Shown here piece after piece: positions 36,998-40,597 of a stretch of DNA of 64,000 bases. Where the stretch lies: assembly GCA_018056705.1 (NCBI GenBank), contig JAGPFE010000003.1, positions 1-64,000 of the forward strand, read 5' to 3'. A program made the translations under genes and the position numbers. The notes under the pieces were generated by a model. The model made no database searches and was not told the DNA's origin. It saw only the letters and a list, made by a program, of their open reading frames with translations. Each line of letters begins with the position of its first letter. Positions within the stretch are counted from its first letter, which is position 1. This stretch comes from Candidatus Hydrogenedentota bacterium. GTDB taxonomy: Bacteria; Hydrogenedentota; Hydrogenedentia; Hydrogenedentales; CAITNO01.

Positions 36998-37026
36998 TTG
37001 ACTTTGGCGGAAAAAAATGGTAAACT
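36998..37026 (+). promoter_or_regulatory. Strong sigma70-type promoter of porin 1
   Basis: TTGACT (36998-37003) and TAAACT (37021-37026), 17-bp spacing with an A-rich spacer and A-rich DNA upstream (an UP-like element at 36955-36995). The predicted start near 37033 gives a leader of about 310 nt before the porin ATG. Confidence 0.75.
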
Positions 37027-37346
37027 GTCCCCTGATTGCGGAGTAGTAGAGGTGCACTGATTGGGACGTTACGTCTGACAGTGCGGGAGAGTTTAATTTT
37101 ATGTCGTGGCCGGTACGGATCATCGTGCCGAACACGTACTGAATCAGGCATTGCCATCCCCGGACCGTACAACCCGGAGCAGAAAGGAGGGATGCGCGTG
37201 GAAGGCCGTAGGGGCCGATAACTCCGTGCGGGACGGGCAAAGATGTGGCGATATACGGGATGCCAGACAGGTTCTGGTATCCGCGTTTCGCGAAGACGCG
37301 AAGCGCGAAGCATGGGTCAATGCAACCATAAAGGGAGAATACGTAC
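37027..37346 (+). promoter_or_regulatory. Long structured 5' leader of porin 1
   Basis: This 320-nt untranslated region has a hairpin near its 5' end: GCACTG (37054-37059) with CAGTGC (37079-37084), and an inner GACG-TTA-CGTC stem. At about 37180-37200 it has AGAAAGGAGGGATG followed by CGCGTGGAAG. A closely similar block occurs in the leader of porin 2 (about 39170-39190). A 10-codon frame from the ATG at 37191 to TAA is possible, but its AAAGGAGG is too close to be a normal binding site. No known riboswitch was recognised. Confidence 0.5.
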
Positions 37347-38657
37347 ATGCGTACGATGAAGATGGTCGTTTTGGCGGCGCTCGTCCTGACGCTGGGCGGC
37401 ATCGCGACCGCTGAACTGCAGAACGTGGAAGTGGGTGGCAAGTTGCACATCCGCGGCAACTACTGGTCCCTTGACGATGGTCAGGATCAGGAAATCTCCT
37501 TCTACGAACAGCGCACCCAGTTGAACGTGAAAGCGGACTTCACGGACAACGTGACCGCGTTCATGGAACTGGACAGCTATGACATCTGGGGCGAAGACTT
37601 CCGCTCCAACTACTTCACCGGCGCCGATGGCCGCCAGGCCAGCACGGATGACGTGGAGTTCTACCAGGCGTACGTCGAAGCCCGCGAGATGTGGGGCACC
37701 CCGCTGATGATGCGGGTCGGCCGCCAGGAACTGGTGTTCGGCAGCGAATTCCTGCTGGGCAACAATGACACGGAAGCCCTGTTCCGTGGCCTGTCCTTCG
37801 ACGCCATCCGCCTGGCGTACGTGACCGACGCTTTCCGCGTTGACGTGTTCACCGCGAAACTGGCTGAAAATCTCCTCAGCGATTTCGCGTCCGATAACAT
37901 CGACCTGTATGGCGTCTATGGTTCGTACCTGGGCATCGAAGATGTCGTGATCGACGCTTACTGGCTGTACCTGGTCGATGACCTCAACAATGATGAAACC
38001 CTTGATTTCCACACGGTCGGCCTGCGCGGCGCGGGCAAAATGGGCGGCTTTGATTTCGACGTCGAAGTCGCTTACCAGTTCGGCGAATGGGATGGCCAGC
38101 CCTCGGCCTGCCCGTTCGGGTTCGGCGAAGCCGACGTTGAATATGGTGCCTGGGCGGTGAACGCTGATCTGGGCTACACCTTCGACGTGGCCTGGCAGCC
38201 CCGCGTGTCCGCTCAGTTTGCCTGGTATGACGGCGGCGACCCGGATGAGAGTTGCTGGTCCAATGATCGTGAACTGCCCTTCAACCGGCTGTTCAGCGAC
38301 AAGGAATACAGTTACTTCCTGGACAACGCCGGCGCGGCCAACCTGAGCAACGTGTTCGTTTATGGTCTCGCGATCGAAGCCATGCCGACCGAAGCCGTTT
38401 CCCTGAAACTGGCCGGCAAGTATTTCGACGCGGATGAAGATTACGGCACGGACGGCGATCTGGGCTGGGAACTGAGCCTGGTCGGCAAGTACAACTACAC
38501 CGAAGACCTGGCTTTCCGCGCGGGTTATGCCCACTTCTTCTCCACGGCGGATGACAATGATGTCCAGGTTGTTGCCAACAACGGTCTGGCCAACGCTGGT
38601 ATCGCCGATGACGACGATTATGACTATGTCTTCGCCGAAATGATGATCTCCTTCTGA
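37347..38657 (+). CDS. AlgE-like outer membrane porin 1
   Basis: This 436-residue protein has a signal peptide (MRTMKMVVLAALVLTLGGIATA), then ELQNVEVGGKLHIRGNYW. Amphipathic beta strands, acidic loops and a C-terminal Phe (EMMISF) are typical of a barrel folded by BAM. The segments AFMELDSYDIWGEDFRS, YQAYVEAREMWGTPL and RVGRQELVFGSEF match the alginate-export family (PF13372), whose members pass acidic or neutral oligosaccharides. By hand count 11 of 16 Arg codons are CGC, while neighbours prefer CGG, and preferred synonymous codons dominate, so this is probably one of the most abundant proteins of the cell. RBS AAGGGAG at 37331-37337. A tandem paralogue follows. Confidence 0.9.
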   Translation: MRTMKMVVLAALVLTLGGIATAELQNVEVGGKLHIRGNYWSLDDGQDQEISFYEQRTQLNVKADFTDNVTAFMELDSYDIWGEDFRSNYFTGADGRQASTDDVEFYQAYVEAREMWGTPLMMRVGRQELVFGSEFLLGNNDTEALFRGLSFDAIRLAYVTDAFRVDVFTAKLAENLLSDFASDNIDLYGVYGSYLGIEDVVIDAYWLYLVDDLNNDETLDFHTVGLRGAGKMGGFDFDVEVAYQFGEWDGQPSACPFGFGEADVEYGAWAVNADLGYTFDVAWQPRVSAQFAWYDGGDPDESCWSNDRELPFNRLFSDKEYSYFLDNAGAANLSNVFVYGLAIEAMPTEAVSLKLAGKYFDADEDYGTDGDLGWELSLVGKYNYTEDLAFRAGYAHFFSTADDNDVQVVANNGLANAGIADDDDYDYVFAEMMISF

Positions 38658-38680
38658 GGTCCATTTCAACGGATGTTTTG

Positions 38681-38718
38681 CCCCCGGTCGGGTAGCCCCG
38701 GCCGGGGGTTCTTGTTTT
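38681..38718 (+). terminator. Strong Rho-independent terminator after porin 1
   Basis: CCCCCGGTCGGG (38681-38692), loop TAGC, CCCGGCCGGGGG (38697-38708), then TTCTTGTTTT. Confidence 0.9.
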
Positions 38719-38895: not shown

Positions 38896-38915
38896 TTCTT
38901 ACCATCTTGTAAGAA
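38896..38915. promoter_or_regulatory. Palindrome TTCTTAC-N6-GTAAGAA, candidate activator site
   Basis: Perfect 7-bp arms (38896-38902 and 38909-38915) with spacer CATCTT lie 113 bp upstream of the -24 box of the sigma54 promoter at 39029. That distance and symmetry fit an upstream activator sequence for an enhancer-binding protein. Confidence 0.6.
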
Positions 38916-39028
38916 TTGAAGGTTTTCATTCCGGAGCGTTTTCATGGTTTTTCTCTTAAATAGTTAAAAAAAAGGATTTATATGTAATTCGGGTCGAAAC
39001 GATATTGCACACATCCAGCGGTATGACG

Positions 39029-39043
39029 TGGCACGGGAGTTGC
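39029..39043 (+). promoter_or_regulatory. rpoN-dependent promoter: Sigma54 (-24/-12) promoter of porin 2
   Basis: TGGCACG (39029-39035), 4 nt, TTGC (39040-39043). The GG and GC dinucleotides are exactly 10 bp apart, matching the sigma54 consensus at all key positions. Transcription would start near 39055, giving a leader of about 220 nt before the ATG at 39275. Confidence 0.8.
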
Positions 39044-39274
39044 GTCATGGGGGCCGCGTCAGCCCAAGGCGGTGCCGGGAATCCGGGCCGTGATCCCGGT
39101 TTCCCGGCCCGCGAGAGGAGACGCGCGGAAAGCAACGAAAACCTCCCTGGAACCCGTCAAGCACCGCAGGAAAGGAGGGATGTGCTGGAAGCGCGGGATT
39201 GGTTCTGGAGATCACGCATACAAGACAGCGGAACTCGGTTGATCGTATCTTTTCAACAACAAGGAGATCATGCC
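39044..39274 (+). promoter_or_regulatory. Structured 5' leader of porin 2
   Basis: It holds a strong hairpin, CCGGGAATCCGGG (39075-39087) with CCCGGTTTCCCGG (39095-39107), 12 of 13 pairs, loop CCGTGAT. Further on is GGAAAGGAGGGATGTGCTGG near 39172-39191, similar to the block in the porin 1 leader. The porin RBS AAGGAGA is at 39261-39267. The stretch 38719-38895 upstream of the palindrome shows no gene. Confidence 0.5.
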
Positions 39275-40597
39275 ATGAGAAGTTCGAAAGTACTGACGAT
39301 GCTGCTGATTGTGGCCACGGTTTTGCCGGCGTACGCTGAACTGCAGAACGTGGAAGTGGGGGGAAGCCTGCGTATCCGCGGCAATTATTACAACCTGGAT
39401 AGCCTTGGGGACCTGTCATACATCGAGCAACGGACACGCCTGAGCGTAAAGGCTGATTTGACCGATGAAGTGACGGCCTTTGTCGAACTGGACAGTTTTG
39501 ACCTGTGGGGCGAAGATTTCCGGTCGGATTACCTGCGAGGTGCGGATAGCCGCTCTGACAGTTCGGACGACGTGGAAATTTACCAGGCGTACATCGAGGC
39601 CCGGAACATGTGGGGTACTCCCATCCGACTGCGGGCGGGCCGGCAGGAACTGGCCTTTGGCAGCCAGTGGCTGGTGGGCGTGAATGATGCCGCCTCTTTT
39701 TACCAGGGACTGTCCTTCGACGCGTTCCGGCTGTCATGGATAGATGAATCTTTCCAGGTTGACGCGTTCGCCGCGAAACTCGGGGATCGCGTGAACGGGG
39801 ATTTCGCGTCCGATGACCTGGACTTTTATGGCGTGTACGCCACGCTGACGTCTATCGAGAACCATACGTTTGACGCGTACTGGCTGTATGTTCGAGACGA
39901 CAATTACCTGACGGCTTACGACGTGGACCTGCACACGGTGGGTATCCGGGCGGCGGGCGCGTTTGGCGCGTTTGATTACGAAGTGGAAGGAGCCTACCAG
40001 TTTGGAGATGTGGACGGCCTGCCTTCGGCATGTCCTGCCGGTTTCGGCGAAGCGGACGTGAAATACGACAGTTTTGGCGTGTTCGCCATGGCGGGGTACA
40101 CCTTTGACATGGCCTGGAAGCCACGGGTATTTGCCCGCTTCTCCTGGCTGGATGGCGGGGATCCTGATAACAGCCCCTGGTCCAATGATCGTACCCTTCC
40201 GTTCAACCGGCTATTCTCAAATTACGAATACACCGAGTTTTTCGCCAATACCGATGAGAGCAATTTCTACTACTATGGCCTGGGCCTGGACCTTGCGCCC
40301 ACGGAAGCAGTTACCCTGCAACTGGTTGGCGGATATTTCATGGCGGATGAACGCGCGTTGCTATCCAGCGGCCTGTTTGGTAAGAAGTGGGCAGATCGTA
40401 ACATCGGATTGGAACTGGGCCTGTATGGCAGTTACGCCTACAGTGAGGACCTGTCATTTAATGCCGGCTATGTGCATTTCTTCGGGGATGATGGGCTGGC
40501 CGCCAATCGATTCATTGGTAATGGCCTGCTGGCCTGGGGTGGATCGGGCGATGATGATTATGACTACGTTTTCATTGAAACCCAGGTGAGTTTTTAG
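39275..40597 (+). CDS. AlgE-like outer membrane porin 2
   Basis: This 440-residue paralogue of porin 1 has a signal peptide (MRSSKVLTMLLIVATVLPAYA), then ELQNVEVGGSLRIRGNYY. The same ordered motifs follow (AFVELDSFDLWGEDFRSDY, YQAYIEARNMWGTPI, RAGRQELAFGSQW), and the end is Phe (ETQVSF). It ends with TAG, the only TAG terminator among intact genes here. Codon use is ordinary (mixed CGG/CGA/CGC/CGT/AGA for Arg), unlike porin 1. With the sigma54 promoter this suggests a conditionally expressed variant porin, for a different substrate or nutrient state. Start ATG 39275 is chosen from the signal peptide and AAGGAGA. Confidence 0.9.
   Translation: MRSSKVLTMLLIVATVLPAYAELQNVEVGGSLRIRGNYYNLDSLGDLSYIEQRTRLSVKADLTDEVTAFVELDSFDLWGEDFRSDYLRGADSRSDSSDDVEIYQAYIEARNMWGTPIRLRAGRQELAFGSQWLVGVNDAASFYQGLSFDAFRLSWIDESFQVDAFAAKLGDRVNGDFASDDLDFYGVYATLTSIENHTFDAYWLYVRDDNYLTAYDVDLHTVGIRAAGAFGAFDYEVEGAYQFGDVDGLPSACPAGFGEADVKYDSFGVFAMAGYTFDMAWKPRVFARFSWLDGGDPDNSPWSNDRTLPFNRLFSNYEYTEFFANTDESNFYYYGLGLDLAPTEAVTLQLVGGYFMADERALLSSGLFGKKWADRNIGLELGLYGSYAYSEDLSFNAGYVHFFGDDGLAANRFIGNGLLAWGGSGDDDYDYVFIETQVSF

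Follow-up and report, generated by a model that had tools for sequence, protein, structure and literature searches.

Within the 64,000-nucleotide stretch of DNA from an uncultured Hydrogenedentota bacterium analysed here, referred to as the window, the second of two porin genes (porin 2) is probably transcribed with sigma54 from a promoter at positions 39029-39043, where transcription would be driven by a NifA-like activator binding at 38896-38915 when nitrogen is short. The original prediction had read porin 2 as nutrient- or stress-gated, a reading that is supported, and the nutrient is predicted to be nitrogen, the same operator, exact or more degenerate, standing before amt/glnA and before the gene of the activator. 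In the best reading, a one-component NifA-like nitrogen regulator would do the work of NtrC, with a dedicated porin in its regulon.

Predicted promoters and phylogeny of the two porins

Both porin genes lie on the forward strand and match the Alginate_exp family (PF13372), namely (i) porin 1, 436 aa, at 37347..38657, and (ii) porin 2, 440 aa, at 39275..40597, the copy predicted to be nitrogen-regulated. The two barrels had been described as almost identical, a description that does not hold with only 55% identity over 447 columns.

Upstream of porin 2, both motifs are present as first reported, i.e., a -24/-12 box TGGCACG-N4-TTGC (TGGCACGGGAGTTGC; 39029-39043, forward strand) with 10 bases from GG to GC, and, 113 bp upstream of it, a perfect palindrome TTCTTAC-N6-GTAAGAA (TTCTTACCATCTTGTAAGAA; 38896..38915), the predicted enhancer site of the NifA-like activator. 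The box agrees with the sigma54 promoter pattern TGGCAC-N5-TTGC, where 10 bases separate GG and GC, and its occurrence within 350 bp of the porin 2 start codon has a p of 0.002 (500 shuffles). An A+T-rich stretch (73% A+T; 38925..38990), possibly a flexible segment, lies between operator and promoter, and a 5' leader is predicted on the forward strand at 39054..39274, its start point being deduced from the position of the -12 element, about 11 nt after which a sigma54 transcript would be expected to begin. Short inverted arms, ATGACG (39023-39028) and CGTCAT (39043-39048), flank the box.

Porin 1 is followed by a terminator-like hairpin of 13 pairs on the forward strand (38680..38709), the longest stem among eight such hairpins found where 4.1 were expected, which would separate two transcription units. 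Before porin 1, the sigma70-type promoter-like site TTGACT-17-TAAACT that had been proposed for it is indeed found on the forward strand (36998..37026); it is a 9/12 match, of which 1.4 are expected in the region by chance, and by eye it is kept in the nearest relative (L033). Judging by sequence, porin 1 would keep a housekeeping-type promoter.

Relatives of the window were represented by 26 related loci from named genomes, of which 21 bear the name of this phylum (18 Hydrogenedentota, 3 Hydrogenedentes), the remainder being assigned to Candidatus Hydrogenedens (2) or to uncultured bacterium (3). Conservation of the -24/-12 box, whose lack in close relatives had been named as a refutation, is borne out in the best porin matches of the 10 top-ranked genomes, where it lies 230 to 323 bases before the start of the match. 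Compared with shuffles, a box is detected at p <=0.026 in these 10 best matches, whose genomes belong to the same family, as well as in G025; the remaining 19 porin loci show no box above shuffles (lowest p 0.13). On a tree of 38 rows, from which L161 (internal stop) and porin 1 of the nearest relative were dropped, the ten boxed porins of the family and one unboxed porin form a single 11-row group (93/96, drawn open), so that 10 of the 11 boxed porins stand together and the boxed porin of G025 stands elsewhere. The box label requires 3 changes on this tree versus 9.6 in shuffles, none of 500 being as low. Porin 1 of the window falls in the sister group (10 rows, 86/83), where no member is boxed and where sigma70-type promoters were recognised by eye for porin 1 and four further members (L037-L040). 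The one unboxed member of the sigma54 group (G005) is located just downstream of amt, in the order amt-porin, and the gene order at L036 is porin, glnK, amt. The two classes of porin promoter are thus old, and the sigma54 porin group is, judging by gene position and operator site, tied to ammonium uptake.

The predicted operator and its probable NifA-like activator

The original prediction had called for a search for rpoN and for an enhancer-binding protein in the genome, and both were found. The rpoN gene is intact (482 aa, with the RpoN-box sequence recognised by eye); its 3' end appears at the ends of two contigs (C34, C87; L001, L002) with some differences, reflecting either assembly overlap or strain variation. 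As for the enhancer-binding protein, a fitting NifA-like activator carries the same site before its own gene. Only two exact copies of the palindrome exist across the 3.3 Mb genome: one stands before porin 2, and the other, at C40:245-264, precedes by 14 bp a leftward frame that is truncated by the contig end. By eye, the first 53 residues of this frame match the start of the intact 520-aa protein of L096, an orthologue in a genome of the same genus and identical to L083 of G001, while a later piece at the start of contig C70 is 97% identical to L096 over 301 residues. On the strength of this intact orthologue, the C40 and C70 pieces are taken as one split activator gene. The start of contig C40 (L060 1-70), which cuts the activator gene, looks like a sequencing-library adapter.

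The activator has the architecture GAF-AAA-HTH_8, and L096 passes the NifA model TIGR01817 with 540 bits against a curated cut-off of 528.85. The features of a sigma54 enhancer-binding protein, i.e., an AAA+ domain with a GAFTGA loop (seen on the C70 piece of the genome itself) and a C-terminal helix-turn-helix, are all present; the N-terminal receiver domain of NtrC is missing from the activator and a GAF domain stands in its stead. Residues 14-183 of the N-terminal part match a solved chain of nlh1 (4g3k), NifA-like homolog 1 of Aquifex aeolicus, at 7.5e-24. Of 21 genomes, 17 have a close match to the activator (>=76% to the C70 piece), and no such match was found in the other 4. In L096, the palindrome is located 44 bp before the ATG, and across activator promoters the operator often covers, by eye, the sigma70-type -10 element of the activator gene, which points to autorepression.

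A search for the palindrome at other sigma54 promoters had also been suggested, and the motif does recur, in looser form, before glnK-amt, amt and glnA of relatives. Outside the genome itself, 18 near-exact sites (<=1 mismatch) were listed, and 15 of them were retrieved with their surroundings. Five immediately precede the gene of the orthologous activator (L083, L084, L088, L093, L095), and three are followed, at a distance of about 85-160 bp, by a sigma54 box of glnK-amt (L082), amt (L090) or glnA (L091), where amt and glnA were confirmed and glnK was read by eye. The other seven have no box of at least 16.5 within 450 bp downstream on either strand (L081, L085, L086, L087, L089, L092, L094; the L092 stretch ends early at a contig end). 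The next best site of the genome itself (2 mismatches) is one of two adjacent sites before glnB-glnA, and glnK-amt has a site 94 bp before its box; the -12 elements of these two boxes read GT at glnB-glnA (L126) and GA at glnK-amt (L191), not GC. The operator consensus deduced from the sequences is TTCYTAC-N6-GTARGAA.

Two motif models were scored. The first, a weight matrix for which only activator-gene promoters were used (14 sites, some of them picked by eye), ranks 38896-38915 as the top site of the window with 25.9 bits, the runner-up reaching 14.3. For three gene sets it was applied to the 350 bp that precede the highest-scoring sigma54 box, with 1000 dinucleotide shuffles per region. 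At amt, 23 of 30 loci have a box of at least 17.5 (seven were dropped, the own one included), and 15 of these 23 regions reach p<0.01 and 19 p<0.05. At glnA, all 17 regions with a box reach p<0.01, 13 of the 30 loci having been dropped, among which are that of the genome itself and three where little upstream DNA was available. Among the 30 porin loci, 6 of the 10 with a box reach p<0.01 and 8 p<0.05, versus 2 of the 20 without one at p<0.01, of which L151 has a box just below the cut. Permuted palindromic motifs never reached the observed mean in 500 trials for amt (23 regions), glnA (17) or boxed porins (11, at a cut of 17.0), whereas the remaining 19 porins were equalled in 262 of 500 trials.

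A reverse test of activator promoters (12 of 17 NifA-like genes versus 2 of 19 others) was discarded for partial circularity: the 25 sites used for training (of 40) had been picked with the activator-trained motif. It was replaced by a second, de novo motif in which activator genes had no part. This motif was sought in 40 regions upstream of amt and glnA (20 bases, palindromy imposed, 400 random starts, unseeded) and then scored elsewhere against shuffles. The ten best runs agree with equal likelihoods on the consensus ATCCTACCAATTGGTAGGAT, with the same core CCTAC-N6-GTAGG. This motif is found at p<0.01 in the 200 bp before 17 of 20 NifA-like activator genes (19 at p<0.05; L100, cut by a contig end, was left out), and upstream of the box in 10 of 11 sigma54-type porins (all 11 at p<0.05) versus 1 of 19 other porins. 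It assigns p 0.001 to 38896-38915 and to each of the own amt and glnB regions. The G002 porin goes from p 0.49 under the activator-trained motif to 0.016 under the de novo motif, and the G016 porin from 0.057 to 0.009. Early pattern scans had given no site in the nearest relative, a statement now withdrawn, both motifs finding before its porin a different palindrome, AAACTACCGGTGGGTAGGAT, 148 bp upstream of the box.

The activator is not a NifA in the nif sense, a candidate function rejected with no nifH found here and no operator found upstream of nifH elsewhere. In the genome itself, no nifH over the cut-off was found (30.6 bits versus 394.35); nifH exceeds it in 2 of the 60 genomes, and in both upstream regions a sigma54 box is present and the operator was not found. 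The binding site of NifA is TGT-N10-ACA, which the operator deduced here does not match. The nifH gene of G007 is adjoined by another GAF-AAA-HTH activator (L117 and L238 overlap at 100%), which is 57% identical and scores 499 bits, below the NifA cut-off; a copy of the operator precedes its gene (L117). This copy suggests that genomes with a dedicated nif activator may have the NifA-like activator as its superior in a cascade.

That cascade-like arrangement can also be turned against the activator proposed here. In enterics, NtrC controls nifA; by the same logic, another sigma54 activator, e.g., an NtrC-type response regulator, could bind the amt, glnA and porin sites and control the NifA-like gene too, an explanation we regard as unlikely. 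Other activators do exist in the genome, the GAF activator beside nifH in G007 has the site before its gene, and three of the four genomes without a close NifA-like match still carry sites, namely G009 (82% complete), G021 (63%) and G024 (95%), where they stand before amt, porin or glnA; in these, either the activator gene is missing from the assemblies or another protein binds. Against this, promoters of the other activators mostly lack the site under the de novo motif, with 2 of 19 at p<0.01 (L117, the GAF paralogue, and L123). In the fourth genome, G022, other activators are kept and no close NifA-like match is found, and neither a palindrome (<=3 mismatches) nor a box (>=16.5) occurs within 1500 bp before glnA or amt. 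Its congeners with the activator, G029, G034 and G039, have box and site at glnBA; since they too lack the box at amt, only glnA is telling in this genus.

A chance -24/-12 match next to an unrelated palindrome, with the porin read from another promoter, is highly improbable, even though neither motif is clearly enriched genome-wide once mismatches are allowed. With at most one mismatch, TGGCACGN4TTGC has 67 matches in the genome versus 108 for a reversed control, four being exact. The box alone was therefore rejected as evidence, because its one-mismatch matches are no commoner than those of the control. The palindrome is hardly enriched in the own genome with up to 2 mismatches (4 places versus 3 for the control), and with up to 1 mismatch, summed over 60 genomes, it is rarer (20 places) than the reversed control (42). 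The weight of the motifs comes instead from the position of the copies and their conservation, and it is the box kept in the best matches of the 10 top-ranked genomes, the shuffle and permutation tests and the grouping on the tree that speak against chance. Two further exact -24/-12 matches appear, by eye, to be intergenic, at L006 ~1440-1515 (C53) and L005 ~1501-1515 (C31), the former just before a very small hydrophobic reading frame, again by eye.

Least probable of all is a palindrome acting as a repressor site for another nutrient, with the sigma54 box served by an unrelated activator: the site does often lie, by eye, over the -10 element before the activator gene, as would befit a repressor, but at amt, glnA and porin loci the distance from the best site to the -24 element downstream is 49-314 bp, in most cases 85-212 bp, which fits an enhancer.

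A conserved element in the porin leaders

The leaders of both porins contain a conserved element, GAAAGGAGGGATG, at 39170..39182 for porin 2 and, by element scan, at 37182..37194 for porin 1, both on the forward strand. By sequence it resembles an orphan Shine-Dalgarno element, and a separate start site follows. The form GAAAGGAGGNATG, or a close one, occurs in 26 of 30 porin loci (L148-L177), 105-237 nt before the start of the match, and the core [AG]AAAGGAGG is found twice in the 64 kb window, each time in a porin leader, and in none of 30 glnA and one of 30 amt stretches scanned.

A possible helix encloses the element in the porin 2 leader, where the 5' arm CTGGAACCCGTC (39147..39158) would pair with the 3' arm GATTGGTTCTGG (39197..39208), both on the forward strand (p 0.007 versus shuffles). 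In an alignment of 11 leaders outside the own family, all 8 pairs of a helix around the element show changes in both partners, with 93.2% paired cells; none of 500 shuffles was as high, and slid partners scored far lower. Leaders of the own family are mostly not significant singly, and jointly give a Fisher's statistic of 57.8 with 30 degrees of freedom. Single-sequence folding gave structures no better than shuffles for both window leaders and L174, and a weak signal for L168, with 12 of 200 shuffles as good. No Rfam family was matched at gathering level in the window, and one weak unrelated match was obtained elsewhere in three relatives. An upstream open reading frame at the leader ATG is not supported, because L034 and L036 lack this ATG. 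Element and covarying helix, found in porin leaders across the order, together are a candidate for a new structured RNA or an orphan ribosome-binding element, for which a role like that of STAB-SD, by analogy, would be one possibility.

Proposed nitrogen regulation and known systems

In the mechanism proposed, the signal of the GAF domain would free the activator under nitrogen limitation. Bound to the palindrome at 38896-38915, the protein would contact the sigma54 closed complex at 39029-39043 by looping across the A+T-rich DNA of 38925-38990, and would open it. Expression of the activator gene would in turn be kept in check by the activator itself. As the sensor is a GAF domain, not a phosphorylated receiver, the signal is probably a small metabolite or a PII protein. 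The sequences, their conservation, the co-occurrence of sites and genes and the tree are what the analysis shows, whereas binding, transcription, the signal and what porin 2 lets through are inferences. More tentatively, Hydrogenedentota may combine a one-component NifA-like nitrogen regulator in place of NtrC, a porin pair split so that one copy is induced by starvation, and, in the leaders of both porins, a structured RNA of a new type whose orphan ribosome-binding element adds post-transcriptional control.

Such a scheme would give Hydrogenedentota a testable nitrogen-starvation regulon, place a NifA-family protein in an apparent NtrC role and tie the permeability of the outer membrane to nitrogen status. 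It would also offer a possible reason for the coexistence of related porins, i.e., one housekeeping copy and one starvation copy, the porin leader RNA being a second lead.

In the open-licence literature, as covered by titles and the starts of abstracts, no Hydrogenedentota nitrogen regulon or sigma54-controlled porin and no characterised regulator in the phylum were found. The main text of a cross-phylum sigma54 survey has no match for Hydrogenedent or porin (PMC12316311), and neither NifA nor porin is matched in a paper on Hydrogenedentota metabolism (PMC10866078). Systems of this kind are known, and what sets the present one apart is its regulator class, operator, phylum and porin.

In the NtrBC-sigma54 regulon of Proteobacteria, the sigma54 boxes of glnA and glnK-amtB are preceded by enhancers, the sites of NtrC being TGCACY-N5-GGTGCA. 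The likeness lies in enhancer sites upstream of sigma54 boxes at nitrogen genes, whereas a one-component GAF activator and the operator TTCYTAC-N6-GTARGAA, not TGCACY-N5-GGTGCA, are predicted here. In Desulfovibrio, DVU1949 is, according to the excerpted text, a proposed autoregulated one-component sigma54 activator of nitrogen metabolism and transport, based on comparative genomics (PMC4641369); regulon and phylum differ from those reported here, and the main text of that paper has no match for porin as a whole word. In the Leptospira study, as far as its excerpted text goes, amtB and two genes for putative lipoproteins are driven by EbpA together with sigma54, and disruption of EbpA impairs growth under nitrogen limitation (PMC12655853). 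While EbpA is thus also a GAF-type activator acting with sigma54 on amtB, it is called FhlA-like and has two putative GAF domains, and the porin among the targets here has no counterpart named in that excerpt. The leader element GAAAGGAGG of the porins recalls STAB-SD of the Bacillus thuringiensis cry3A mRNA, which is described, in the excerpt available, as a Shine-Dalgarno-like sequence of a long leader that does not initiate translation (PMC4113751); the present element, Shine-Dalgarno-like by sequence, belongs to porin leaders of a diderm phylum and lies, in relatives, inside a covarying helix. Nlh1, too, is a related case, a GAF-type NifA homologue for which the excerpted source speculates on a role in nitrogen assimilation, not fixation (PMC9866876). 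Both are NifA-like GAF activators placed, there by speculation, in nitrogen assimilation, but the present predictions extend to the operator, the targets, which include a porin, and autoregulation, and they span an order that belongs to a different phylum.
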